Assembly (NCBI RefSeq): GCF_003610255.1
Contig: NZ_RAPS01000001.1
Coordinates: 7,653,001 to 7,717,000, forward strand
DNA length: 64,000 nt
Direction of reading: 5' to 3'
DNA from: Streptomyces sp. TLI_171
Lineage (GTDB): Bacteria; Actinomycetota; Actinomycetes; Streptomycetales; Streptomycetaceae
Below the pieces are notes generated by a model, which made no database searches, was not told the DNA's origin, and worked only from the letters and a program-made list of their open reading frames with translations. Below are positions 26,388 through 52,629 of the stretch, one piece after another. Each line of letters begins with the position of its first letter. Within the stretch, counting starts at the first letter, position 1. Position numbers and translations under genes: made by a program.

Positions 26388-26457
26388 GGGGGACTCCCGG
26401 AAGCCTGGTGAATGAGGTGGGGAGGCGCGGCGGAGCGGACTGCGGAGCGGCGGCGAC

Positions 26458-26479
26458 GGATTGTTAGCGCTAACAATCC
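26458..26479. promoter_or_regulatory. Perfect 22-bp LacI-family operator upstream of the GH127 gene
   Basis: The core TTGTTAGCGCTAACAA (26461-26476) is extended on both sides to a perfect 22-bp palindrome with central GC. The arms fit LacI/GalR-type operators found before arabinoside and xyloside genes. No LacI gene lies next to it; the nearest in this window (12363) has a different operator, so an unlinked regulator is likely. Confidence 0.8.
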
Positions 26480-26720
26480 GGCCCAAAAGCAAGGTGCCAC
26501 GACTGACCCGCACATCCCTGGAGGGAGTGCAGGGTCGAAAGTGACACCGCCTGTTACGTTCGGGTTACTTTATAGCCGGGGCCGCCGGCGCTGTCCAGGC
26601 TCGCGGCGGGGCCCGCACCGCGCCCGGCGAGGACCGGACGGGGCCGCTGACCCGGTTCCGCGGCCCGGCGGCCGGAGAAAACGCCTTGCCGTCCCCCCGG
26701 TGTCCGGGCAGCCTGACCGG

Positions 26721-48757: not shown

Positions 48758-49894
48758 TCAGTGGTCCGGCCGGTCGTCGCCGTGGTGCGGTTCGTCGGAG
48801 AGCAGGCCTTCGGCGGCGCCGTCGAGGAGGCGCTGCAGGTCGGCGGAGCGGGGCAGCATGGTCGCTTCGTAGGCGCGGACGGCGGCGGCGACGGTGTCGT
48901 GTTCGGCGAGGGCGAGGGCGAGTTCGCAGGCGTCGAGCATCGCGAGGTTGACGCCGACGCCGAGCGGGGGCATGAGGTGGGCCGCGTCGCCGAGCAGGGT
49001 GGCGGTGGGGCTGTGCTCCCAGGTGTGCGGGACGGGCAGGGCGTGGATCGGCCGGTCGACGTAGTGGCCGTCGTTGTCGGTGAGCAGGCGCCGCAGGGCC
49101 GGCGACCAGTCGCCGTAGCGCTCCAGCAGGAGGGCACGGAGCGCGTCGGTGTCCTGGACGGTGTGGCCGGCGGCGGCGATCCAGTCGGCGGGGACGCGCT
49201 GGATCAGGTAGGCGCGGATGTGATCGCCGTTGTTGCGCTGGGCGAACAGGCCGCGTTCGCCGTCGGCCGCGGCGGCGCTGCCGGGGCCGACGAGGGCGGC
49301 GACGTCGGGGTGCCGGTGCTCGACGTCGTGGAACCAGGCCTCCAGGAAGCTGATGCCGGTGTACCGGGGCGTGGCGGGGGAGAGGGTGCGGCGGACCGTG
49401 GACCAGGCGCCGTCGGCGCCGATGACGAGGTCGGCCTCGACGGCGGCGCCGTCGGCGAAGCGCAGGCGGCGGGGGCCCGCGGTCGGTCCTTCGACCGAAC
49501 GCAGGCTGCGGCCCCAGTGCACGGTGCCCGGGGCGAGCGAGTCGAGCAGCAGGTCGCGCAGCTGGCCGCGGTCGATCTCGGGCTTGCACCGCTCCCCCTC
49601 CTCGGGGACGTGATGGAACCCCAACTCGCAGGTCTTTGCGTCGAGTTGGCGCATCTCCTGCCCTTCGGGCCGGGCCAGGCGGAAGAAGTCGTCCAGCAGT
49701 CCGGCTTCGCGCAGGGCGATCTGGCCGTTGTCCTCGTGCAGGTCGAGCGTGCCGCCCTGGTTGCGGGCCTCGGGGCCGTGCTCGCGGTCGTACACGGTGA
49801 CGGCGATGCCGTGGCGCTGCAGGATGCGGGCGCAGGTGAGGCCGCCGGGGCCGGCGCCGATGACGGCGATGCGGGGGTCGATCGGGGTGGGCAT
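48758..49894 (-). CDS. FAD-dependent monooxygenase (TetX/PHBH-like)
   Basis: 378 residues from ATG 49894; an upstream in-frame start at 49966 would add a basic, unrelated stretch. FAD-binding IAVIGAGPGGLTCARILQRH (about 9-28), the DG motif in ADLVIGADGAWSTVRRTLS, and the second FAD motif LLGDAAHLMPPLGVGVNLAM (about 310-329) are complete. Between them, FHDVEHRHPDVAALVGPGS fits the substrate domain of TetX-type enzymes. It would hydroxylate an aromatic or polyketide substrate with NADPH and O2. Divergent from a TetR gene. Tetracycline inactivation is possible but not shown by sequence. Confidence 0.9.
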   Translation of the reverse strand: MPTPIDPRIAVIGAGPGGLTCARILQRHGIAVTVYDREHGPEARNQGGTLDLHEDNGQIALREAGLLDDFFRLARPEGQEMRQLDAKTCELGFHHVPEEGERCKPEIDRGQLRDLLLDSLAPGTVHWGRSLRSVEGPTAGPRRLRFADGAAVEADLVIGADGAWSTVRRTLSPATPRYTGISFLEAWFHDVEHRHPDVAALVGPGSAAAADGERGLFAQRNNGDHIRAYLIQRVPADWIAAAGHTVQDTDALRALLLERYGDWSPALRRLLTDNDGHYVDRPIHALPVPHTWEHSPTATLLGDAAHLMPPLGVGVNLAMLDACELALALAEHDTVAAAVRAYEATMLPRSADLQRLLDGAAEGLLSDEPHHGDDRPDH

Positions 49895-49972
49895 GGTGGT
49901 GCTCCCTTCGAGGACGGCGCGCGAGGTGCCGCGCAGCCGGGGCAGGTGCCGTCCAGAAGAGCACAACGACTA

Positions 49973-50029: not shown

Positions 50030-50707
50030 ATGGCTGACCCCGCCCCCCGGAACGACACCCCGCCGCCCCCGCCGCCACCTCCCCCACCGCCGCCCGCCCC
50101 GCCGGGGCGCCGCGAGCGCAAGAAGGCCGCCACCCGGCAGGCCATCGCCGACGCCGCGCTGGCGCTGTTCCTGGAACGCGGCTACGACGACGTCGGCATC
50201 CGGGAGATCGCGGACGCCGCGGACGTCTCCACCACCACCCTGTTCAAGCACTTCCCGGTCAAGGAGGCACTCGTCTTCGACGAGGAGGCCGACCTGGAGG
50301 CCGACCTGCTGGCCGCCGTCCGCGAGCGCCCTCCCGGCCGGTCCGTCCCGGCCGCCCTGTGCGACCACGCGCTGCGCCACCGCAGGGCCGCGACCGACGG
50401 CGACCCCGGGTTCACGGCCTTCGCCGCCCTGGTGAACTCCACGCCGGCCCTGCGCGACTACCAGCAGGCCATGTGGCTGCGCCACACCGACGCGCTCGCC
50501 GCGGTCATCGCCGAGCAGAGCGGCCTGCCCGCGGACGACGCCGCCTGCACCGCACTGGCCCACTTCGCCCTGGAGGCACCCCGCGCCGCCCTGTCCCACG
50601 ACGACGTCCGGGCCGCCCTGGTCCGCGCCTTCGACCTGCTCGACCACGGCTGGAGCGCCCTCGCCGGACCGGGCCGAGCACGCCGTGACCCGGCCGAGCG
50701 CACCTGA
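50030..50707 (+). CDS. TetR family regulator with polyproline N-terminus
   Basis: 225 residues from ATG 50030. The N-terminus has a run of 12 prolines (about 11-22) before APPGRRERKKAATRQAIADA, a basic arm that often contacts DNA. Helix-turn-helix: REIADAADVSTTTLFKHFPVKEALV (about 58-82). The rest is helical and ligand-binding, with AFAALVNSTPALRDYQQAMW. The gene is divergent from the FAD monooxygenase and the palindrome at 49973-49997 lies between them. No ribosome site is obvious, so the transcript may be nearly leaderless. Confidence 0.9.
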   Translation: MADPAPRNDTPPPPPPPPPPPPAPPGRRERKKAATRQAIADAALALFLERGYDDVGIREIADAADVSTTTLFKHFPVKEALVFDEEADLEADLLAAVRERPPGRSVPAALCDHALRHRRAATDGDPGFTAFAALVNSTPALRDYQQAMWLRHTDALAAVIAEQSGLPADDAACTALAHFALEAPRAALSHDDVRAALVRAFDLLDHGWSALAGPGRARRDPAERT

Positions 50708-50743: not shown

Positions 50744-50917
50744 TCACGCGTCGTCCGCCGCTTCCCGGACGTCGACCACGGCCTCCCCGGGCGTCCGCGC
50801 CCAGTCGGCCAGGGCGGCGATCGGCCCGGCGGTCAGGCCGCCCACGTGCTGGTGATGATCTCGACGGCCGGTCGGGCCGGGCAGTCGGCGAGGAAGGCGT
50901 CTCCGGCCGAGTCGCGC
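50744..50917 (-). pseudogene. HxlR-type regulator remnant with internal deletion
   Basis: On the minus strand, 50917 down to about 50838 reads RDSAGDAFLADCPARPAVEI and ITSTWA, the N-terminal FLADCPAR-x-A-x-x-x-I-x-x-x-W box of HxlR regulators (redox Cys included). In a different frame, GGLTAGPIAALADWARTPGE then AVVDVREAADDA to the stop at 50744 matches their C-terminal LTPxG-xx-L-xx-P-x-x-AL-xx-W part. About 60 residues containing the recognition helix are missing. The intact operator palindrome beside it now may answer to another regulator or none. Confidence 0.7.
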
Positions 50918-50921
50918 CCGG

Positions 50922-50951
50922 GCCGACAGGTACCTGCAGGTACCTGTCGGC
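50922..50951. promoter_or_regulatory. Perfect 30-bp palindrome before the alpha/beta hydrolase
   Basis: Half-site GCCGACAGGTACCTG (50922-50936) is followed directly by its complement (50937-50951). Each half contains the sub-palindrome AGGTACCT. GTAC-containing dyads are typical of HxlR operators. It lies 18 bp before the hydrolase ATG at 50970. Confidence 0.8.
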
Positions 50952-50969
50952 TCGTTAGCGTCCAGTGCC

Positions 50970-51758
50970 ATGACCACACCGCGAACGGAAACCTTCGTCC
51001 TCGTCCACGGCGCCTGGCACAGCGGGCGCGTCTGGGACCGGGTGACGCCGCTGCTGGCCCGGGCCGGGCACCGGGTCCTCACCCCCTCGCTCACCGGCCA
51101 CGGCGAGCGGCAGCACCTGCTCGGTCCGCACGTGGGCCTCGACACGCACATCGCGGACGTCGTCGCCCTCCTGCGCGACGAGGACCTCACCGACGTGGTG
51201 CTGGTCGGGCACAGCTACGCCGGAATGGTCGTCTCGGGAGTGACCGACCAAGTCCCGGAGCGGATCGCCGCGCTGGTCCACCTCGACGCGATGGTCCCGG
51301 CCGACGGCGAGAGCGTGCTCGACGTCCTGCCCGCGACCAGGCACCTGCTCGACCTCGCCGCGGCCACCGACACCCCCTGGCGGATCCCGCCGATGCTCCC
51401 CGCGCCGGACGGGCCTACCCCCGCCGGCCTGTTCGGCGTCACCGACCCGGCGGACACGGCCTGGCTGCGCACCCTGCTCTCAGACCAGTCCGCGCTGTGC
51501 TTCCGGCAGCCGGTCCGGCTGGCCAACCCCGCCGCGGCCGCCGTGCCACGGACCCACATCCACTGCGTCGGCGGCGCACCGGAGGCCGTCCCCCGCCGTC
51601 CCGTCCCCGCGGTGCAGCCCAACGGCGCCCCGTCGCGGGTGTGGGAACTGCGCAGCGGCCACGACTGCATGGTCATCGCGCCGGACCGACTGGCCGAACT
51701 CCTGCTGCGGGTCACCGCCGCCACCGGGCCCACCGAGCCGGCGGGCACGCCCTCCTGA
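50970..51758 (+). CDS. Alpha/beta hydrolase
   Basis: 262 residues from ATG 50970. The fold opens with TFVLVHGAWHSGRVWDRVTP (about 8-27) and has the nucleophile Ser82 in LVGHSYAGMV, an Asp/acid segment in ALVHLDAMVPADGES, and the late His in LRSGHDCMVIAPDRLAELLL. This matches small esterases of the salicylate-esterase/hydroxynitrile-lyase-like type. Cytoplasmic; substrate unknown. The strong palindrome overlaps its promoter region and an HxlR remnant lies divergently upstream, so control of this enzyme may now be lost. A terminator follows. Confidence 0.9.
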   Translation: MTTPRTETFVLVHGAWHSGRVWDRVTPLLARAGHRVLTPSLTGHGERQHLLGPHVGLDTHIADVVALLRDEDLTDVVLVGHSYAGMVVSGVTDQVPERIAALVHLDAMVPADGESVLDVLPATRHLLDLAAATDTPWRIPPMLPAPDGPTPAGLFGVTDPADTAWLRTLLSDQSALCFRQPVRLANPAAAAVPRTHIHCVGGAPEAVPRRPVPAVQPNGAPSRVWELRSGHDCMVIAPDRLAELLLRVTAATGPTEPAGTPS

Positions 51759-51869: not shown

Positions 51870-52112
51870 TCAGCCGATGTTGGCGCAGGAGTTGCCGGCC
51901 GCCGGGTTCAGCGCGCCGATCAGGTTGATGCTGTTGCCGCACACGTTGACCGGAATGTGCACGGGGATCTGGATCAGGTTGCCCGACAGGACGCCGGGCG
52001 AACCGACGGCCACGCCCTGGGCGCCGGCGGACGCGGACGCCACTCCGGCCGTGCCGAGCACAGCGGTGGCGGCCAGGGCGACGGCGGCGAGGTACGTGCG
52101 GGTGCGGGACAT
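51870..52112 (-). CDS. Short chaplin
   Basis: 80 residues from ATG 52112 (AAGGAG upstream). Signal peptide MSRTRTYLAAVALAATAVLG ending at ASA (about 28), then a single chaplin domain with GVLSGNLIQIPVHIPVNVCG and NSINLIGALNPAAGNSCANI. The two Cys (58 and 76) mark the disulfide-forming short chaplins (ChpE-H group). Chaplins are secreted, form amyloid fibrils and coat aerial hyphae, lowering surface tension. No LPxTG sorting signal. It shows that the organism forms aerial hyphae. Single gene with a convergent terminator. Confidence 0.95.
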   Translation of the reverse strand: MSRTRTYLAAVALAATAVLGTAGVASASAGAQGVAVGSPGVLSGNLIQIPVHIPVNVCGNSINLIGALNPAAGNSCANIG

Positions 52113-52629
52113 GTCGACTCCTTGGTTCCATGCGGGGCGCCGCCCCGGGTGGGGCGGCACCGGTGATTCGGGGTGCGCGTGCCGGCGGCGTGCCCGACGG
52201 GGTGCAGAATCACCCCGACGAGTGCGTCCCGGCACGGGATCAGGGGACGGGCGCCTCCACGGGCGCCCGGAACGGGCCGGCGGCCACGGCCCGGGGCGGA
52301 CCGGTGCGCAGGCGACGAAGCAGGATCACCAGCGGTCTCCGATTCCCATGGCTCAGCAGCGACGGCCCGTATCCGTCCGAGAGCGGCGGGCGGGGGATGC
52401 CCGTCCGACACTTCGGCCGACACGAACTGTCCCCCGCCGCCGCCCGCGATCCACGGTGAACCCGCCCTGGGCGTGCCCCGGCCACCCGTGCGGCCCAGTG
52501 TGATCACCTGTCCGGCCGCGCGGCACGGCCCTGCCCGGCGGCGCCCGCTGCCGTCCGTCGGCCGCGGCGGCGACGCCACCCGGCAGCTCACGGACCGTCA
52601 GACGCCTTGGCAGGGCCGTCGGTCACCCC
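52113..52629. other. Interval without recognised gene, upstream of the chaplin
   Basis: Contains the chaplin promoter region near 52113-52230 and otherwise unbiased DNA up to the M23 remnant. No RNA element recognised. Confidence 0.45.

Follow-up and report, generated by a model that had tools for sequence, protein, structure and literature searches.

Within the window (the whole 64-kb stretch of DNA that we analyzed), an intact gene for an alpha/beta hydrolase stands back to back with the broken remains of an hxlR regulator gene, and a perfect palindrome lies between the two (Table 1). The palindrome covers 30 bp with 15 of 15 pairs matching (halves GCCGACAGGTACCTG and CAGGTACCTGTCGGC) and contains two GGTACC cores with 4 bp between them. 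A gap of 18 bp (50952 to 50969) separates it from the hydrolase ATG (50970), and the preliminary description of a perfect 30-bp palindrome with GTAC centers at this distance upstream of an alpha/beta hydrolase was accurate. The remnant is adjoined on its other side by a divergent pair encoding a TetR protein with a proline-rich N terminus (50030 to 50707, plus strand) and an FAD-binding protein (48758 to 49966, minus strand).

Table 1. Features of the hydrolase-hxlR region, in window coordinates
Feature	Position	Strand	Remarks
hxlR remnant, C-terminal (GPIAALADWARTPGEAVVDVREAADDA plus stop)	50744..50835	-	Other frame; inner end approximate
Deletion junction CGGCC, approximate	50836..50840	-	From alignment to L024
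hxlR remnant, N-terminal (RDSAGDAFLADCPARPAVEIITSTW..)	50841..50916	-	Without start codon; ends at stop
Lost hxlR start codon	50917..50919	-	GGG here, ATG or GTG in relatives; by alignment
Orphan HxlR-type operator	50922..50951	.	Two GGTACCTGTCGGC half-sites, 4-bp spacer TGCA
Lost hxlR -10	50927..50932	-	TACCTG in the left half-site; TANNNT in 18 of 19 intact loci; by alignment
Probable hydrolase -10 box TAGCGT	50956..50961	+	8 nt 5' of ATG; predicted leaderless
Alpha/beta hydrolase gene, intact	50970..51758	+	262 aa; GHSYAG motif

No other perfect palindrome in the window is as long, the runner-up measuring 24 bp; given the composition, about 0.0011 perfect 30-bp palindromes are expected per 64 kb. 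Elsewhere in the window, a perfect 24-bp palindrome at 26457 to 26480 (CGGATTGTTAGCGCTAACAATCCG) presumably resembles a LacI-type operator. When the genome was searched for the same palindrome, as had been proposed, the 24-base pattern GACAGGTACN6GTACCTGTC matched exactly only at the window operator in 8.46 Mb, and just one other place came within three mismatches, having all three. We also searched 394 genomes of the family, an even draw from a larger group, with a 26-base form of the operator with an N4 spacer. This form was found free of mismatches in two genomes (the window genome and G029) and with two mismatches in two more (G069 and G197), and the reversed-pattern control gave no match in the same 394 genomes. 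With two GGTACC-like half-sites, a 4-bp spacer and a place between divergent starts, the site has the layout of this subfamily's operators, and it sits where 19 relatives with an intact hxlR carry an imperfect one. In the titles and abstract openings that we consulted, mainly of the open literature, we found no description of a GGTACC operator of HxlR in actinobacteria.

The hydrolase matched PF12697 (E = 1.8e-21; 78.3 bits against a cutoff of 26.3) and carries the GxSxG nucleophile motif in the form GHSYAG, which places this putative enzyme in the alpha/beta hydrolase family. Among solved structures, its best sequence relative is the alpha/beta hydrolase 6tj2, with hydroxynitrile-lyase- and esterase-like proteins ranking next. 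Orthologues occur at 62 to 82% identity in eight further genomes of the genus. The dN/dS ratio against the three nearest relatives was 0.47 to 0.78, an imprecise estimate that is no proof of strong constraint. The TAGCGT box probably acts as the hydrolase -10; read by eye, TAG[CT]GT also precedes the gene in 22 other loci displayed. Just 3' of the hydrolase, the window encodes a small protein that looks secreted and has a ChpA-C (chaplin) domain (51870 to 52235, minus strand).

Both ends of the hxlR gene could still be recognized. The N-terminal remnant scored 31.4 bits against an HxlR model (model positions 2 to 28) and the C-terminal remnant, in a different frame, 26.9 bits (positions 84 to 119). 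The identification of the remnants rests on this model, which was built from five orthologous proteins; a Pfam search of the two short remnant open reading frames gave no family at E <= 10. A homology search, which could have contradicted an HxlR origin of the fragments, upheld it with this model. In alignment to the intact locus L024 of genome G022, 184 nt are gone in one block, with 3 nt more. In L024, CGGCC stands at either end of this block, which fits a deletion between short repeats. The loss (about 185 bp, or about 61 central codons) takes the recognition helix with it and shifts the frame, so that model matches and alignment together bear out the preliminary description of a gene deprived of its central part. 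The loss of the start codon comes on top of what had been noticed before. What remains offers neither the complete winged-helix domain of PF01638 with its recognition helix nor a start codon and promoter (GGG at the start; TACCTG for TANNNT), and the homology of its two ends to HxlR, at the orthologous position and in the orthologous orientation, identifies it as an HxlR-derived pseudogene. Having lost its start codon, its -10 box and about 61 codons from its middle, hxlR yields no local repressor.

The hydrolase is found in 9 of the 70 genomes of the genus at E <= 1e-70, the window genome included. Six of the eight others keep a divergent HxlR, G029 has the operator only, and G054 has neither. 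We then scanned 48 hydrolase loci from the genus genomes and named records, which left 19 intact loci and 3 operator loci without a regulator after the exclusion of three duplicates (L052, L056 and L057), one fragment match (L085), 12 loci whose HxlR is distant (scores of 73 to 79) and 10 loci, including L027, without an HxlR match or an operator of the hydrolase type. The comparison with intact relatives that had been recommended thus found hxlR complete at the same place in 19 loci. The third regulator-less operator locus, L059, belongs to Streptomyces sp. NRRL F-6676; upstream of its hydrolase lies a half-site-like GTACCCGTCGGACCG, a near-tandem repeat at the former hxlR start.

The rpoB tree shows G029 and G069 as sisters (99.5% identical), joined by G022 and then by the window genome, and in the hydrolase tree the window genome pairs with G022 (97/84) and G029 with G069 (100/99). 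Genomes with an intact hxlR separate the window genome from G029 in both trees. The G029 remnant also differs from that in the window, only about its first dozen codons being alignable. By these comparisons, G029, another Kitasatospora, lost hxlR independently of the window genome. At the former place of hxlR in G029 (L022), we read by eye from the DNA a small hydrophobic frame (..ITLGVVLLLIGLIAGIPVLW..). Because hxlR is still present in G022 and G069, near relatives that carry the hydrolase, the loss is lineage specific. The divergence of the remnants from the nearest intact genes is about the same as that of the intact hydrolase, which together with the intact copies in near relatives indicates a fairly recent loss; the dN/dS values of hydrolase and remnants are too imprecise to date it.

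The window genome contains 18 matches to the HxlR domain, and the search for other HxlR proteins that had been suggested turned up one with the same recognition helix, here called HxlR-2 (C1:178475-178846). It is 72% identical to the HxlR of G069 over 116 residues, and its neighborhood holds the operator AGGTACCTCCAGGTAACC and a DoxX-like gene. Its family membership is clear (PF01638, 95.5 bits against a cutoff of 20.8), and it matches the solved chains of YybR (4a5m; 1.3e-20), YodB and HxlR. HxlR-2 is present at 93 to 100% identity in 17 of the 70 genomes of the genus, the window genome among them, and the operator AGGTACCTCCAGGTAAC stands beside it in 16 of the 17. In the winged-helix dimer, helices 4 and 4' are described as the ones that bind DNA (PMC7835342). 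HxlR-2 shares the helix SRKVLTQTLRR with all but one of the 10 hydrolase-linked HxlR proteins displayed; in the exception, L054, the helix ends in LRK. SRKVLTQTLRR was seen in none of the other HxlR proteins of the window genome in a helix comparison that covered 16 of the 18 matches; no helix was extracted from L012, L013 and L016, and their sequences, as well as those of L017 and L018, differ from SRKVLTQTLRR. The HxlR proteins L188 to L191 from other genomes and L014 from the window genome carry the helix S[SPA]KVLTETLRR and have different upstream sequences, such as GGCACCATTCGGTACGTGACC (L190 and L014), so helix and operator appear to go together in this small sample. A paralogue that could in principle capture the site, as had been supposed, does therefore exist: HxlR-2 has the same helix and a similar operator.

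G029 also has HxlR-2 (94%), and the genome of L059 has another same-helix HxlR, located by a gene that by eye resembles a quinone oxidoreductase. Such a protein is thus encoded elsewhere in all three orphan-operator genomes, and also in G054; G054 lost hxlR and operator despite it, so a paralogue alone does not keep the site. G022, G033 and G036, in which hxlR is present, have no second copy at E <= 1e-30. Scored with a matrix of 16 HxlR-2 operators, the window site reached 29.0 bits (the maximum of 200,000 random 28-mers was 3.5) and ranked above only 5 of the 11 operators of intact hydrolase loci put through the same matrix (9.1 to 43.9). With a pooled half-site matrix, its score of 36.9 was unremarkable (intact loci, 16.8 to 40.0). 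The matrix test showed no shift of the window site toward the HxlR-2 operator. A takeover of the window operator by HxlR-2 in trans is possible on these similarities.

Other candidate regulators and sites were less convincing. L016 (C1:283773), which lies by a 40%-identical hydrolase, was rejected as the capturing regulator, being only 27% identical to the G069 HxlR and having an upstream pattern that is not of the GGTACC operator type. The genome has a second exact GGTACC-N4-GGTACC site at C1:6779195 (L127, 1501 to 1516), 67 bp 5' of a zinc-type oxidoreductase gene, which could not be established as an HxlR-2 target. None of the 29 upstream regions of orthologues displayed contains the exact motif (L219 being cut at a contig end). 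The looser form G(C or T)TAC(C/T)-N4-(G/A)GTA(C/T)C occurs at the same place in 10 of the 29, twice as GTTACC-N4-GGTACC, and only three of these 10 genomes (G037, G059 and G027) have HxlR-2, so the oxidoreductase motif does not follow HxlR-2. Genome-wide, operator sites with one mismatch numbered 19 in the forward pattern and 8 in the reversed-pattern control. Among 15 such loci inspected (L136 and L137 show the same site), some were intragenic and some had no called gene nearby, and no regulon was derived from them.

We next looked at the operator from the side of hxlR. Read on that strand, most intact loci have GGTAACCTTCGG or GGTACCCTTCGG as their left half, and the start codon comes a few bases after it. 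The sequence TANNNT, which is the -10 consensus reported for Streptomyces lividans (PMC6742748), ends 5 to 9 nt upstream of the regulator's start codon in 18 of the 19 intact hydrolase loci and in all 17 HxlR-2 loci, and is absent from all three operator loci without a regulator. The difference between 18 of 19 and 0 of 3 (Fisher's P = 0.0026) is indicative only, since the loci are related. The box lies within the half-site in 17 of the 18 loci and is displaced in one (L024). The sole intact locus without it, L081, forms a long branch in the hydrolase tree; a further intact locus, L231 of G197, has a TACCCT box and an imperfect operator. Leaderless transcripts are a described class in Streptomyces (PMC6742748), and the spacing suggests that hxlR of the intact relatives is probably leaderless, with the half-site doubling as its -10. 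In L024, the inner arms are mirrored, and the -10 has moved out of the half-site of an intact hxlR. A similar displacement is seen in the HxlR loci L184 to L187, which lie by another gene.

In the intact relatives, an HxlR dimer of the MarR/DUF24 type would sit on two GGTACC half-sites between back-to-back, probably leaderless promoters and act as a divergent, self-regulating repressor of the hydrolase. The left half-site would usually be the hxlR -10, and the right half would lie just upstream of the hydrolase -10. In the window genome, hxlR is dead, with the hydrolase and its predicted promoter intact; the operator is most likely still bindable and may be occupied in trans by HxlR-2, failing which the hydrolase would simply be derepressed. 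We consider it likely that the local repressor decayed and that its operator persists, where HxlR-2 may bind it in trans or, if not, the hydrolase would be derepressed. For binding in trans itself, the chances seem about even.

Plain derepression, with the operator as a relic kept by the promoter overlap of its right half and by the recency of the loss, is a rival reading that we rate somewhat below an even chance. It agrees with a dead local regulator, with remnants that have diverged about as much as the hydrolase and with a window site that has not shifted to the HxlR-2 operator. It accounts less well for the left half, which hxlR no longer needs and which is still a full half-site and an exact mirror in the window genome and G029, or for the same-helix HxlR in all three orphan-operator genomes (although G054 has one, too).

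The symmetry of the operator itself calls for an explanation. The 12-bp arms have 1 to 4 mismatches in the 19 intact loci, 3 to 7 in the 17 HxlR-2 loci and 4 in L059; none are found only in the window genome and G029, both without hxlR. The preliminary description had read the perfect operator as a sign of recent loss. A fairly recent loss is supported, but its perfection is no sign of it, as all 19 intact relatives are imperfect. Mirrored arms in only the two regulator-less genomes argue that perfection is derived and not ancestral. Both genomes carry the same two bases that abolish the hxlR -10 (TACCTG versus TACCCT in G069), and these are the only 2 of 12 arm positions at which G069 is not mirrored. 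Between G029 and G069, four of the 30 operator bases are different, every one of them in the left arm or the spacer, versus a synonymous difference of about 2.4% in the hydrolase; the chance of at least four changes in 17 sites at that rate is 0.0006, a figure chosen post hoc, and at 4% it is 0.004.

Template switching between arms is reported to turn imperfect palindromes into perfect or more perfect ones (PMC7202029), and PMC8604942 likewise describes it making them more perfect. The order of events might then be reversed: a template switch would have copied the right arm onto the left and killed the hxlR -10, whereupon the gene decayed, and the same would have happened independently in G029. 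We regard this as unlikely but worth considering. The known mutation class (PMC7202029), the shared change from TACCCT to TACCTG and operator differences between G029 and G069 beyond the synonymous rate of the hydrolase all point that way, as does G022, in which the left half mirrors 10 inner bases and hxlR is intact with its -10 apart from the half-site. Against it, the sequences of today do not tell this order from the opposite one, in which hxlR died first and freed the half-site; copying of an arm leaves two of the four changes in G029 (spacer TT to CC) unexplained; the operator of L059, where hxlR was also lost, is unsymmetrical (mismatches at 4 of 12 positions); and there are two cases only. 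The general form of the idea, that an operator with an embedded -10 is kept imperfect and that palindrome correction silences the regulator and leaves a perfect site for a paralogue, is a shade more doubtful still; if true, the operator's own sequence would be a built-in, repeatable route to regulator death. That the palindrome is unrelated to HxlR, as a terminator hairpin or another regulator's site, is very improbable: a perfect inverted repeat could fold and the TetR gene ends upstream of it, but the loop would be zero and a T-run is absent, 19 intact loci have an HxlR-type operator at this place, and a similar one precedes HxlR-2.

The decay of the local repressor with retention of its operator is an ordinary kind of event with an informative twist and not a new kind of system. 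The twist is that the local repressor was lost repeatedly with the operator retained and that perfect symmetry is seen only where the embedded promoter box and the repressor are gone. Among the relatives compared, a perfect site only with a lost repressor hints at how switches die or get taken over. One genus holds intact switches, one switch with a displaced promoter box, two in which the regulator is dead and the operator perfect, and one from which regulator and operator are both gone, which makes a compact natural experiment on a bacterial gene switch coming apart. It can be tested whether an operator-embedded promoter enforces asymmetry, whether palindrome correction silences the regulator and whether a paralogue inherits the orphan site.

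Quasi-palindrome template-switch mutation in Escherichia coli reporters (PMC7202029) shares with our case the passage from imperfect to perfect or more perfect repeats; here, the repeat is a natural operator, the change is deduced by comparison, and it may have had a regulatory consequence. Closest at hand is the HxlR-2/DoxX-like locus, which resembles the window locus in its divergent gene pair, in a half-site overlapping TANNNT by the start and in the same helix, and differs from it in being intact, with an asymmetric operator (5 of 12 arm mismatches) and a DoxX-like neighbor. HxlR/MarR-DUF24 regulators are known for cysteine-based sensing. With the Bacillus subtilis members HxlR, YodB and HypR (which we take to be synonymous with YybR), the remnant and its intact orthologues share the family likeness of an N-terminal DCPAR segment; unlike these regulators, the window copy is a pseudogene without its DNA-binding helix.
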